DNA of 64,000 bases. Origin: Burkholderiales bacterium (GTDB taxonomy: Bacteria; Pseudomonadota; Gammaproteobacteria; Burkholderiales; Casimicrobiaceae). The notes beneath the pieces were generated by a model. That model ran no database searches. It saw nothing but the letters and a program-made list of their open reading frames with translations, and was not told the origin of the DNA. The stretch covers positions 1-64,000 of the forward strand of contig JADZAQ010000074.1 in NCBI GenBank assembly GCA_020852555.1, written 5' to 3'. This document shows positions 50,615-58,867 of this stretch, piece by piece (the stretch's first letter is position 1; every line of letters starts with the position of its first letter). Both the position numbers and the translations under genes were made by a program.

Positions 50615-51406
50615 GTGACCGGTCCGGCACGCGGCGGCGGCGAGGTCATCCTCAGACTCGAGCGCATCTCGCTCGCGTTCGGCGGGGTGAAGGCGCTCAC
50701 CGACATCAGCTTCGACGTCCGCGAGCACGAGATCCGGGCGATCATCGGCCCCAACGGCGCCGGCAAGAGCTCGATGCTGAACGTCATCAACGGCGTGTAT
50801 CGGCCGCAGCAGGGCACGATCACCTTCCGCGGCCAGGTGCGCCGCGACATGAACTCGCACGAGGTCGCCAGGAACGGCATCGCGCGCACGTTCCAGAACA
50901 TCGCGCTGTTCCGCGGCATGAGCGTGCTCGACAACATCATGACCGGGCGCAACCTCAAGATGCAGGCGGGCATCCTCGAACAGGCGATCTGGTTCGGGCG
51001 CGCCCGGCGCGAGGAGCTCGCGAACCGGCTCAAGGTCGAGGAGGTGATCGACTTCCTCGAGATCCAGCACATCCGCAAGACGCCGGTGGGGCGGTTGCCC
51101 TACGGTCTGCAAAAGCGCGTCGAACTCGCGCGTGCGCTCGCCGCCGAGCCGACACTCCTCCTCCTCGACGAGCCGATGGCCGGCATGAACGTCGAGGAGA
51201 AGCAGGACATGTGCCGCTTCATCCTCGACGTCAACGAGCAGTACGGCACGACCATCGTGCTGATCGAGCACGACATGGGGGTGGTGATGGACATCTCCGA
51301 CCGCGTGGTCGTGCTCGACTACGGCAAGAAGATCGGCGACGGCACCCCCGACGAGGTGCGCGCGAGCAAGACGGTGATCGACGCCTATCTCGGGGTTGCG
51401 CATTGA
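50615..51406 (+). CDS. livG: Liv-type ABC transporter ATP-binding protein (LivG-like)
   Basis: 263 aa. Walker A GPNGAGKSS is near residue 45, the signature region LPYGLQKRVELARAL near 165, Walker B LLLLDEPMAGM and the switch IEHDMGVVMD. It is the LivG class by its longer insert region. GTG 50615 starts one base after the ligase stop. It powers uptake together with LivF. Confidence 0.9.
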   Translation: MTGPARGGGEVILRLERISLAFGGVKALTDISFDVREHEIRAIIGPNGAGKSSMLNVINGVYRPQQGTITFRGQVRRDMNSHEVARNGIARTFQNIALFRGMSVLDNIMTGRNLKMQAGILEQAIWFGRARREELANRLKVEEVIDFLEIQHIRKTPVGRLPYGLQKRVELARALAAEPTLLLLDEPMAGMNVEEKQDMCRFILDVNEQYGTTIVLIEHDMGVVMDISDRVVVLDYGKKIGDGTPDEVRASKTVIDAYLGVAH

Positions 51407-51420
51407 AGCGCGCTCACCAC

Positions 51421-51476
51421 GAGACGTCAGGGCGTCGCGCGGGGCGTGCCAGAGGTCCTCGGCGTCTCTTTGTGAA
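51421..51476 (-). repeat. degenerate inverted copy of the 60-bp hairpin repeat
   Basis: Between livG and livH. CTCGGCGTCTCTTTGTGAA at 51458-51476 is the exact reverse complement of the start of the repeat found at 57168-57186. The preceding bases (GAGACGTCAGGGCG...) can be aligned loosely to the rest of the element, so this looks like an eroded copy in opposite orientation. Confidence 0.6.
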
Positions 51477-55094: not shown

Positions 55095-55919
55095 ATGCAA
55101 ACCACCGCCACCGATGCTCCGAAATACCTCTCGGTGAACAACATCGAGGTGATCTACGATCACGTGATCCTGGTGCTGAAGGGGGTCTCGCTCGAGGTGC
55201 CCGAGGGCCGCATCGTCGCGCTCCTGGGCGCCAACGGCGCGGGCAAGAGCACGACGCTGAAGGCGATCAGCAACCTCCTCGCCGCCGAGCGGGGGGATGT
55301 CACCAAGGGCACCATCGAATTCAAGGGTGCGCGGGTGGACAAGCTCACCACCAACGACCTCGTGCGCATGGGCGTGTGCCAGGTGATGGAGGGCCGGCAC
55401 TGCTTCGCGCACCTGACCGTCGAGGAGAACCTCCTCACCGGCGCCTTCACGCGTCGCGAATCGCGTGCCGCGACCGCGCAGGCGCTGGAGCGCGTCTACC
55501 ATTATTTTCCGCGCCTGAAGACCCGGCGCTCGAGCCTCGCCGGATATACCTCCGGCGGCGAGCAGCAGATGACCGCGGTCGGGCGCGCGCTCATGGCGCG
55601 ACCGACGATGATTCTCCTCGACGAGCCGTCGATGGGGCTCGCGCCGCAGATCGTCGAGGAGATCTTCGAGATCGTGCGTGATCTCAACGGCAAGGAGCGG
55701 GTGTCGTTCCTGCTCGCCGAGCAGAACACGATGATCGCGCTGCGCTACGCCGACTATGGCTACATTCTCGAGAACGGCCGCGTCGTGATGGACGGCGAGG
55801 CGAAGGCGCTCGGCAGCAACGAGGATGTGAAGGAGTTCTACCTCGGATTGTCGTCGGCGGGGCGGCGGTCCTTCCGCGACGTGAAGCACTACCGGCGGCG
55901 CAAGCGGTGGCTGTCGTGA
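55095..55919 (+). CDS. livF: Liv-type ABC transporter ATP-binding protein (LivF-like)
   Basis: 274 aa. Walker A GANGAGKST is near residue 45, the signature YTSGGEQQMTAVGRAL near 153, Walker B MILLDEPSMGLAP, then LLAEQNTMIALRYADYGYILENG. A basic C-terminal tail (RRSFRDVKHYRRRKRW) extends past the usual end. It is the fifth transporter component, completing the set, and overlaps the next ligase gene by GTGA. Confidence 0.91.
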   Translation: MQTTATDAPKYLSVNNIEVIYDHVILVLKGVSLEVPEGRIVALLGANGAGKSTTLKAISNLLAAERGDVTKGTIEFKGARVDKLTTNDLVRMGVCQVMEGRHCFAHLTVEENLLTGAFTRRESRAATAQALERVYHYFPRLKTRRSSLAGYTSGGEQQMTAVGRALMARPTMILLDEPSMGLAPQIVEEIFEIVRDLNGKERVSFLLAEQNTMIALRYADYGYILENGRVVMDGEAKALGSNEDVKEFYLGLSSAGRRSFRDVKHYRRRKRWLS

Positions 55920-57157
55920 CGGGCGAAACCTTCGATGCGCTGGAAACACGCGATCCGGAAGCGCGTGACCGCGAGCAGTTCGCGCAGTTGCGCCGACAGG
56001 TTGCCCACGCCAAGGCACACGCCCCGGCGTTTTCCCATGCGCTCGCCGCGGTCGACCCGGCCGCGCTCACTTCCCGGGCGGTGCTGGCGAGCCTGCCGGT
56101 GACGCGCAAGTCCGATCTTCTCGAACTGCAGAAGGCGGCACGGCCGTTTGGCGGTCTCGCCGCCACCCGTTGGGGCGCGGCGCGCCGCGTGTTCCAGAGC
56201 CCCGGGCCGATCTACGAACCCGAGGGTGCGCAGCCCGACTACTGGCGGCTCGCCCGCGCGCTGCACGCCGCCGGCTTTCGCGCTGGCGAACTCATTCACA
56301 ACTGCTTCGCCTACCATCTGACGCCGGCAGGGTCGATGCTGGAGACCGCCGGACACGCGCTCGGCTGCACCGTATTTCCCGGCGGCACCGGCCAGACCGA
56401 ATTGCAGGTCCAGGCGATCGCCGACCTCGGCGCGCACGGTTACGCGGGCACGCCGTCGTTCTTGAAGATCATCCTGGAGAAGGCCGACGAACTGGGTGTG
56501 GCGCTACCTACGCTCGAGCGGGCGATCGTCTCGGGCGAAGCGTTTCTCCCCAGCCAGCGCGAGTTCTTCGCCGCCCGCGGCGTCAGCGGCTACCAGGCGT
56601 ACGCCACCGCCGATCTGGGTCTCATCGCCTACGAGACGGGCGCGCGCGAGGGGCTCGTCGTCGACGAGGGGGTGATCGTCGAGATCGTGCGTCCCGGCAC
56701 CGGCGATCCGGTGGCGGCGGGCGAGGTGGGTGAAGTCGTGGTCACCACCCTCATCACCGCCGACTATCCGCTGATTCGCTTTGGCACCGGCGACCTGTCC
56801 GCCTTCCTGCCCGGGACGTCGCCGTGCGGGCGCACCAACGTGCGCATCAAGGGCTGGCTCGGCCGCGCCGATCAGACGACCAAGGTGAAGGGCATGTTCG
56901 TGCATCCGGCGCAGGTGGCGGCGATCGTCAAGCGCCATCCGGAGATCGTCAAGGCGCGGCTCGTCGTCGACAATGCCGAAGGCGCCGACCGCATGACGCT
57001 CGTGGTCGAGGTGCCGGGCAATGCGTCGTCGTACGCCGAGGCGATCGTCGCCTCGATCCGCGAGGTGACGAAGCTGCGCGGCGAGATCGCCTTCCGCCTC
57101 CCGGGCGAGCTGCCCAACGACGGCAAGGTCATCGAAGACGCGCGCAAGTACAGCTGA
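55916..57157 (+). CDS. phenylacetate-CoA ligase-like (PaaK-type) AMP-dependent ligase
   Basis: A 413-aa adenylate-forming enzyme of the PaaK group: VTRKSDLLELQKAARPFGG, then GTPSFLKIILEKADELGV, YATADLGLIAYET (acid-site region), TLITADYPLIRFGTGDLS and the C-terminal GRADQTTKVKGMFVHPAQV. It activates an aryl or other carboxylic acid to CoA. GTG 55916 is chosen because it overlaps the livF stop (GTGA); GTG 55907 is possible. Two different CoA ligases therefore flank one importer. Confidence 0.87.
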   Translation: MTGETFDALETRDPEARDREQFAQLRRQVAHAKAHAPAFSHALAAVDPAALTSRAVLASLPVTRKSDLLELQKAARPFGGLAATRWGAARRVFQSPGPIYEPEGAQPDYWRLARALHAAGFRAGELIHNCFAYHLTPAGSMLETAGHALGCTVFPGGTGQTELQVQAIADLGAHGYAGTPSFLKIILEKADELGVALPTLERAIVSGEAFLPSQREFFAARGVSGYQAYATADLGLIAYETGAREGLVVDEGVIVEIVRPGTGDPVAAGEVGEVVVTTLITADYPLIRFGTGDLSAFLPGTSPCGRTNVRIKGWLGRADQTTKVKGMFVHPAQVAAIVKRHPEIVKARLVVDNAEGADRMTLVVEVPGNASSYAEAIVASIREVTKLRGEIAFRLPGELPNDGKVIEDARKYS

Positions 57158-57169
57158 GGTAAAGGCGTT

Positions 57170-57229
57170 CACAAAGAGACGCCGAGACGCCGAGAGAAGC
57201 CCGTTTGGTCTCGGCGCCTCTGCGTCTCC
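57170..57229. repeat. 60-bp hairpin repeat, copy 1
   Basis: Identical over 60 bases to copy 2 at 57282-57341. Its two 20-base arms (57176-57195 starting GAGACGCCGAGACG; 57209-57228 ending TCTGCGTCTC) pair at 18 of 20 positions around a 13-base loop. It lies between the convergent PaaK-like and dehydrogenase genes and could act as a bidirectional transcription stop. Confidence 0.85.
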
Positions 57230-57281
57230 CGTTCAAGGGTAGTGACGCCAGATGTCAGCGAGTCCCTGAGGGAGAAGCGAC

Positions 57282-57341
57282 CACAAAGAGACGCCGAGAC
57301 GCCGAGAGAAGCCCGTTTGGTCTCGGCGCCTCTGCGTCTCC
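57282..57341. repeat. 60-bp hairpin repeat, copy 2
   Basis: Perfect duplicate of the element 112 bases upstream. Similarity continues weakly for about 11 more bases (CAAGGGT in both). The 52-base segment between copies is unrelated to either. Together they fill most of the 228-base convergent gap. Confidence 0.85.
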
Positions 57342-57385
57342 TGTGCAAGGGTCTCGACGTCTGCGAGCGGCAGAAGTCGGCGAGG

Positions 57386-58867
57386 TCAGATCCCGCCGAA
57401 GCAGATGTACTTGACCTCGACGAATTCGTCGATGCCGTACTTGCTGCCCTCGCGCCCCAGCCCCGACTGCTTGACGCCGCCGAACGGCGCCACCTGCGTC
57501 GTGATGAGTCCCGTGTTGACGCCGACCATCCCGCTCTCCAGCGCCTCGGCGGCGCGCCAGCAGCGGCCGAGGTCGCGGCTGTAGAAGTACGCGGCGAGCC
57601 CGAACTCGGTGTCGTTGGCGAGGCGGATCGCCTCGGCGTCGTCGTGGAAGCGGATGAGCGGCGCTACCGGGCCGAAGGTCTCCTCGGCGAAGATCTTCAT
57701 CTCGTGCGTGACACCGGTGAGGATGGTCGGCTCGTAGAAGTTACCGCCGAGTTCGCTGCGCTTGCCACCCAGCGCGACGGCGGCGCCGCGCGACTTCGCG
57801 TCGGCGACGTGGTCCTCGACCTTGGCGAGCGCCTGCGCGTTGATGAGCGGGCCTTGCGTCACGCCGGCGCGGGTGCCTTCGCCGACCACGAATTCGCGCA
57901 CCTTCGCCGCGAGTTTCTTCGCGAACGCGTCGTAGACCTTGTCCTGCACGAAGATACGGTTGGCGCACACGCAGGTTTGCCCCGCGTTGCGGAACTTGGA
58001 GATGATCGCCCCCTCGACGGCGGCGTCGAGATCGGCATCGTCGAAGACGATGAACGGCGCGTTGCCCCCCAATTCGAGCGAGAGCTTCTTGATCGTCGGC
58101 GCCACCTGCTGCATGAGGAGCCGCCCGACCGCGGTCGACCCGGTGAACGAGAGCTTGCGCACGGTGGGATTGGCGCACATCTCGCGGCCAATCGCCGGGG
58201 CGTCGCCGACGACGACGTTGAAAACACCGGGCGGGAAGCCGGCACGGACGGCGAGTTCGGCGAGCGCCAGCGCGGAGTACGGGGTCGCCTCCGCCGGCTT
58301 GATGACGACCGTGCAGCCGGCGGCGAGCGCCGGTGCGACCTTGCGGGTGATCATCGACGACGGGAAGTTCCACGGCGTGATCGCCGCGCAGACGCCCACG
58401 GGCTGCTTCACCACGACGAGCCGCCGGTCGTTGCCGACGGTGGGGATCACGTCGCCGTAGATGCGCTTGCCTTCCTCGGCGAACCACTCGACGTACGCGG
58501 CGCCGATGGCGATCTCGCCGCGCGCCTCGGCGAGCGGCTTGCCTTGCTCGGTGGTGAGGATGAGGGCGAGGTCCGCCTGGTGCGCGAGCATGAGGTCGAA
58601 CCACTTGCGCAGGATCGCGCTGCGCTCGCCCGCCGTGCGATCGCGCCACTTGGGCCAGGCGCGGTCCGCGGCCTCGATCGCACGCTGCGTTTCCTTGGCG
58701 CCGCAGTTGGGGACGATGCCGATGCGCTGTCCGGTCGCGGGATTGACGACGTCGTGCGTGCGGCCGTCGTCGGCGTCGATCCACGCGCCGTCGACGTAGC
58801 ATTGCGAGCGCAGCAGCGCGGAATCGGTGAGCGCGGGAATCGCGCGCTCGAAGGTGTCGGGTGCCAT
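57386..58867 (-). CDS. gabD: NAD(P)-dependent aldehyde dehydrogenase, succinate-semialdehyde type
   Basis: A 493-aa aldehyde dehydrogenase. The cofactor region ITPWNFPSSMITRKVAPALAAG, the general-base glutamate in LELGGNAPF and the catalytic cysteine in GQTCVCANRI are all present, ending GLGREGSKYGIDEF. The GQTCVCANR and TPYSALALAELA patterns place it with succinate-semialdehyde dehydrogenases (GabD); glutarate semialdehyde is another option. It is not the MmsA/IolA type that would finish inositol breakdown. A TAAAAT -10 lies about 50 bases upstream, and AAAGG precedes the start. Confidence 0.88.
   Translation of the reverse strand: MAPDTFERAIPALTDSALLRSQCYVDGAWIDADDGRTHDVVNPATGQRIGIVPNCGAKETQRAIEAADRAWPKWRDRTAGERSAILRKWFDLMLAHQADLALILTTEQGKPLAEARGEIAIGAAYVEWFAEEGKRIYGDVIPTVGNDRRLVVVKQPVGVCAAITPWNFPSSMITRKVAPALAAGCTVVIKPAEATPYSALALAELAVRAGFPPGVFNVVVGDAPAIGREMCANPTVRKLSFTGSTAVGRLLMQQVAPTIKKLSLELGGNAPFIVFDDADLDAAVEGAIISKFRNAGQTCVCANRIFVQDKVYDAFAKKLAAKVREFVVGEGTRAGVTQGPLINAQALAKVEDHVADAKSRGAAVALGGKRSELGGNFYEPTILTGVTHEMKIFAEETFGPVAPLIRFHDDAEAIRLANDTEFGLAAYFYSRDLGRCWRAAEALESGMVGVNTGLITTQVAPFGGVKQSGLGREGSKYGIDEFVEVKYICFGGI

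Follow-up and report, generated by a model that had tools for sequence, protein, structure and literature searches.

A dispersed family of small palindromic intergenic elements, probably mobile and recently spread, in a draft genome of the Burkholderiales

Between two convergent genes of the 64,000-nucleotide window analysed here (contig C74 of genome G000, a draft of 3.83 Mb in 282 contigs, 94% complete with 5% contamination) lie two identical 60-bp hairpin sequences, raising the question of whether they represent a local duplication or belong to a mobile family and, if the latter, what spreads such a family and what it does to the transcripts that carry it. Small palindromic repeats occur widely among bacteria, and for many of them we know of no mover. 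The original prediction took the pair, together with an inverted relic elsewhere in the window, for members of a dispersed REP/MITE-like family that may still move or convert, with local duplication as the simpler reading should the genome hold no further copies.

Starting with the pair itself, we see both copies in the predicted 112-bp register, bounded by an AMP-binding-type gene on the plus strand and an aldehyde dehydrogenase gene on the minus strand (Table 1). Each does fold into the near-perfect 20-bp stem attributed to it, with 20-nt arms of 90% complementarity and fold energies of -34 to -46 kcal/mol (against shuffled sequence, z -2.6 to -5.7). Similarity between the two runs past the 60 bp, extending without gaps over 94 nt at 89% identity and an offset of 112; since the flanks agree at 26 of 40 positions, against 11.4 at random, and in the same register, the pair is a 112-bp tandem duplication (first base of unit 2 at 57266), which on sequence comparison we read as one inserted element followed by local duplication. 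Three further direct tandem pairs (on contigs C252, C266 and C128) have loops common to the two members of each pair, and in all four pairs the cores are 93–97% identical with flanks at 43–65%; cores so much more alike than their surroundings point to conversion, constraint or a duplication limited to the element itself. Conversion of the core, or constraint on it, is thus plausible, in line with the suggestion that copies may still 'convert', and the copies at 57170 and 57282 would then descend from a single insertion, tandemly duplicated, with a core kept uniform by one or other process.

Table 1. Positions of the hairpin elements and neighbouring genes in the window (R1 is the covariance model described in the text)
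Feature	Coordinates	Strand	Evidence
Decayed copy (relic)	51412..51476	-	R1 25.6 bits, E 0.013; end 17/17 exact
Upstream convergent gene, AMP-binding family	55907..57157	+	Pfam PF00501, 28.7 bits, just under the curated cut-off of 29.9
Tandem-duplication unit 1, 112 bp (element plus spacer)	57154..57265	+	94-nt match at offset 112; flanks 26/40
Hairpin copy 1	57168..57237 (core 57170-57229)	+	R1 78.4 bits, E 1.5e-16; 60/60 identity to copy 2
Hairpin copy 2	57280..57349 (core 57282-57341)	+	R1 77.7 bits; 112-bp tandem unit with copy 1
Downstream convergent gene, aldehyde dehydrogenase	57386..58867	-	Pfam PF00171, E 9.6e-174

The inverted relic proposed within the Liv operon is real, with its span corrected to that of Table 1. 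Lying between livG-like and livH-like genes, in a spacer of 81 nt here versus 46 in the relative G006, it has a diverged core with conserved ends; one end holds an exact match to the 17-mer CACAAAGAGACGCCGAG (minus strand, 51458-51474), which when allowed up to three mismatches occurs 4 times in the window versus 0.26 expected. Inside the livG-like gene, at 51292-51354, there is also a sub-threshold Rfam match to the Pseudomonas sRNA P10 (29.8 bits; cut-off 37), probably by chance.

A search of the genome with the 60-mer gave 62 matches, and a covariance model built from 24 copies (R1; both strands merged before counting) resolved 45 distinct copies, all intergenic and dispersed over more than 30 contigs, so that the prediction of a small, dispersed palindromic family is borne out and local duplication accounts for the pair only. 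The element is 60–80 bp long (about 50–80 bp if measured along the arms) and non-coding, of the form TTCACAAAGAG...CTCTTTGTGAA (family consensus TTCACAAAGAGACGCCGAGACGCGGAGAAA-loop-TTTCTCGGCGCCTCTGCGTCTCCTGTGAA), with TTCAC/GTGAA ends at which conservation sets in sharply (TT|CAC). Its palindrome extends through the whole element, the arms running inward from TTCACAAAGAG to give a stem of 19–20 bp, a loop of about 15–20 and terminal inverted repeats of about 15–20 bp; beyond the ends there is no excess of palindromic pairing, the value falling below that of shuffled sequence. The arms are composed of GAG and CGC triplets, nearly always paired, with a single free base at every fourth position, and these spacer bases are mostly unpaired (in 23/24, 18/24 and 17/24 copies at three positions). 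An enforced mismatch at the spacer bases, suspected from a lower match within copies than across them, was rejected: a fixed asymmetry combined with mixed orientation explains the pattern. No compensatory changes occur among the 24 copies; as the triplets hardly vary, covariation within the family speaks neither for nor against an RNA structure, and selection for RNA pairing lacks compensatory support at this level.

The placement of the copies follows a clear pattern, judged from gene calls made with a home-made codon-based caller on the stretches around them. Neighbouring genes are co-directional at 31 of the 45 sites and convergent at 11, three copies lie at a contig edge and none falls in a divergent spacer (P 0.0008 by bases and 0.02 by spacer number relative to background spacers, a statistical case for avoidance that is modest). 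Where both neighbours are known, every copy lies downstream (3') of one gene or of both; the facing stop codon is a median of 11 nt away and is overlapped by six copies, whilst for 12 of the 31 copies between co-directional genes the next start is no more than 20 nt from the end of the element, which puts these inside apparent operons. The element may thus insert, or survive, mainly just 3' of stop codons. About 11 copies form a composite subset with longer flanking sequence in common, indicating that a larger unit has dispersed too, and all eight co-directional copies of this subfamily face the same way with respect to transcription (P 0.008). A second intergenic repeat, CCCCCACGCTCGCTGC...GGGGGCGCAGTCAGCGGCTTGGGGCGGCCCGGCGCCGCTGACG, occurs at about 30–40 places in the genome (contigs C222, C239, C180, C193, C232 and others; L154-L157), often without the hairpin and also in composites with it. 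At L031:1440-1503 the upstream gene (by eye apparently sucC, adjoining sucD) apparently draws its stop codon from a copy, which also replaces its final residues as compared with G006.

Comparison with relatives points to a late spread. R1 finds nothing in 18 of 21 genus-mates and 1–3 weak matches in each of the other three; G006, the closest relative compared (88% identical in the liv region), holds no significant copy by R1 and none by the broad model R2 (see below). All 22 flanks queried have orthologues in G006, so the copies do not sit on contaminant or foreign contigs, and at 18 of these 22 sites the orthologous spacer is shorter in G006 (sign test P 0.002), for example 170/11, 179/35 and 112/30 nt here and in G006, respectively; the other four are not shorter, and with a relative only 88% identical spacers will differ by ordinary drift as well. 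A model search of the orthologous loci of G006 and G014 found no convincing copy, the best among them being a weak degenerate match of 17.6 bits in G006 at the C67 site; this looks like a common decayed copy, so that some copies, or the family as a whole, may be older than the split. Insertion or amplification since the divergence from G006 is the simplest reading of the missing copies and shorter spacers, and the prediction of mobility holds to the extent that these empty orthologous sites point to elements that moved recently. The pair site itself offers no clean comparison: in G006 a gene other than that for aldehyde dehydrogenase comes next, and elsewhere among the relatives the place is taken by an additional gene or another inverted repeat. 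In G017 (L162), the spacer between the orthologues of both convergent genes is filled by an inverted repeat that is near-perfect but of another sequence, GAAAATGCGGGTCAGAGATGCATTTC...GAAATGCATCTCTGACCCGCATTTTC.

As for the mover, the Y1 profile PF01797, which covers RAYT and IS200/IS605 TnpA and gave positive controls, has no match in the present draft nor in the Dehalococcoidia genome G455, where the hairpins are heavily amplified. The RAYT-type transposase that the original prediction proposed to look for is therefore absent from the sequence at hand, with the proviso that in a 282-contig draft a transposase may simply be unassembled. Target duplications, which it likewise proposed to look for, are not seen at the copies, the mean shared k-mer being 1.71 versus 1.74 +/- 0.18 for shuffled data. 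We think it likely that the hairpins are copies of a non-autonomous, small palindromic mobile DNA element, spread recently in this lineage by a putative enzyme acting in trans that leaves no target duplications; transposition as the mechanism is something we infer from the empty sites, and the mover could be a trans-acting DDE transposase or operate in another way.

Several other accounts can be set against this one, the least probable being that local duplication alone produced the pair: its 112-bp register and similar flanks do record a tandem duplication, but with about 45 copies dispersed over the genome we give the idea almost no credence. That the copies are bidirectional intrinsic terminators, alike through common function, is a proposal we regard as very improbable. 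It would suit the strong stem, the convergent location in the window and the position 3' of at least one gene, and the original prediction had the pair ending transcription from both sides; the stem, however, is not followed by a U-tract (at 89 of 90 element edges no 8-nt window has more than 5 T), and the two 'terminator-like' scan hits rest on a 5-bp inner stem. Classical intrinsic termination is thus unlikely, the suggestion of a two-sided terminator is not supported, and neither the 60/60 identity nor the shared loops would come from convergent function; nor would one expect, of terminators, the 12 co-directional copies lying so close to the next start inside apparent operons. Transcribed copies of the mobile element we favour would instead fold into strong hairpins, either at the 3' end of an mRNA or between the genes of an operon, and the likely effect would be on mRNA 3' processing or stability, or on the coupling with the gene that follows; such effects are plausible by analogy with ERIC elements (PMC2229807) and REPs (PMC3733652).

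The remaining alternatives concern the enzyme and the class of element. A REP/REPIN system that relied on a RAYT (Y1, IS200/IS605-like) transposase, since lost or unassembled, would account for a palindromic, extragenic family with clustered copies downstream of coding regions and a patchy distribution between relatives, and several Y1 proteins do occur in some hosts of related hairpins (9 matches in G050, 11 in G183 and 6 in G152). Of 24 Y1 loci examined in other hosts, though, 22 have no hairpin and the other two have one more than 1 kb from the gene, and neither the present genome nor G455 has a Y1 match at all. REPs are moreover defined as palindromes tagged with GTAG at one end and having stems of 5–13 bp, with head-to-tail dimers under-represented (PMC3733652), whereas here there is no GTAG end, the stem is about 20 bp and direct tandem pairs occur. 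CGTC-tagged REPs do lack a dedicated transposase and occur across phyla (PMC3733652), but have stems of 8–9 bp and loops of 4–5, unlike the stem of about 20 and loop of about 15–20 of the present element, which has no one-end tag. With neither target duplication nor Y1/RAYT in the genome, strict REP/RAYT membership fails, and we consider this route improbable. A somewhat better, if still unlikely, candidate is a MITE-type deletion derivative of a DDE insertion sequence with terminal repeats TTCACAAAGAGACGC, moved by that element's transposase. Like the MITEs RUP, NEMIS and Nezha, the element is small and non-coding with terminal inverted repeats, and its size is at or just under the lower limit of the 70–300 bp range given for MITEs (PMC3733652); it differs in having no target duplications and in being palindromic throughout and not at its ends alone. 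In the copy contexts read from the draft, neither a parent insertion sequence nor a transposase gene was noticed beside any copy. The 'REP/MITE-like' label of the original prediction hence survives as a description of a palindromic intergenic family, less the duplications and the RAYT/Y1 enzyme. Closest in character are the enterobacterial ERIC/IRU elements (127 bp), which are likewise imperfect palindromes, intergenic and transcribed, have no proven transposase and have reported effects on mRNA stability (PMC2229807); the present element is shorter, of other sequence (judged from the consensus only) and built from triplets with free fourth bases, and where ERIC/IRU has TA ends and a target duplication, it has TTCAC/GTGAA ends and no duplication. 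It works like ERIC/IRU- or MITE-type elements and is not filed as a REP.

Similar hairpins, with the canonical form TNACCACNGAGNCACNGAGNCACNGAG-loop-reverse complement, occur not only in genus-mates but also in further genomes of the order and in relatives more distant still. The present element shares with them TNAC(C)AC ends and alternating CRC/RAG triplets in both arms, features by which we delimit a 'CACNRAG hairpin superfamily' (a working name). Of 399 genomes sampled from the phylum (Pseudomonadota, with a Burkholderiales-like order, judging by gene content and G+C), 53 have hits to the broad model R2, in a strongly patchy distribution, and the model gives high numbers in G050, G152, G183, G215 and G455; the last is a MAG titled Dehalococcoidia (L098), whose hairpin starts with the same TTCACAAAGAGACGC. 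No parsed copy in the other hosts lies in a divergent spacer, compared with 5 of 11 in G455, where gene calls are rough. Amongst plasmids, this variant has no match and the canonical form has one, at 75% identity between co-directional genes of pTs485 from Candidatus Thiodictyon syntrophicum. Common descent, horizontal transfer and a common constraint acting on low-complexity, period-8 sequence are all compatible with these data. Tentatively, and with rather less than even confidence, we suggest that the copies belong to a cross-phylum superfamily of inverted (CAC N RAG N)n, spread by horizontal transfer and local amplification via an undescribed mechanism other than RAYT/Y1, with the triplets recognised across the free base. 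That this genome has about 45 copies and its sister no significant one, and that similar hairpins are amplified in another phylum, in both cases with no Y1 detected, gives a direct way to test what spreads them. A further lesson is that these elements can remodel the spacers and the mRNA 3' ends of the genomes they occupy.

Rfam contains no family matching above its gathering score, only sub-threshold generic hairpins, and sequence strings typical of the wider family occur in none of the relevant papers of the open-access literature, the part covered here. Small intergenic palindromic repeats are an already known kind; it is for this variant, with neither an Rfam nor an open-access literature match, that we claim novelty.

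A contig titled Anaerolineae carries a hairpin almost exactly of this variant (L099:6923-7009) beside what by eye is a proteobacterial-looking TolQ; as the contig may be chimaeric or misbinned, we set it aside as evidence of cross-phylum transfer, though the alignment behind R2 includes it as one row. In contigs of IMG/VR, where this variant is absent, the canonical 25-mer is found exactly in 46 stretches, with about none estimated by chance. One of these contigs, IMGVR_UViG_3300037755_001324 (L277, L294, L306), is a 34-kb putative viral sequence of 70% GC that may be host DNA; it bears at least four canonical hairpins, the loop of each holding a second GC-rich palindrome.
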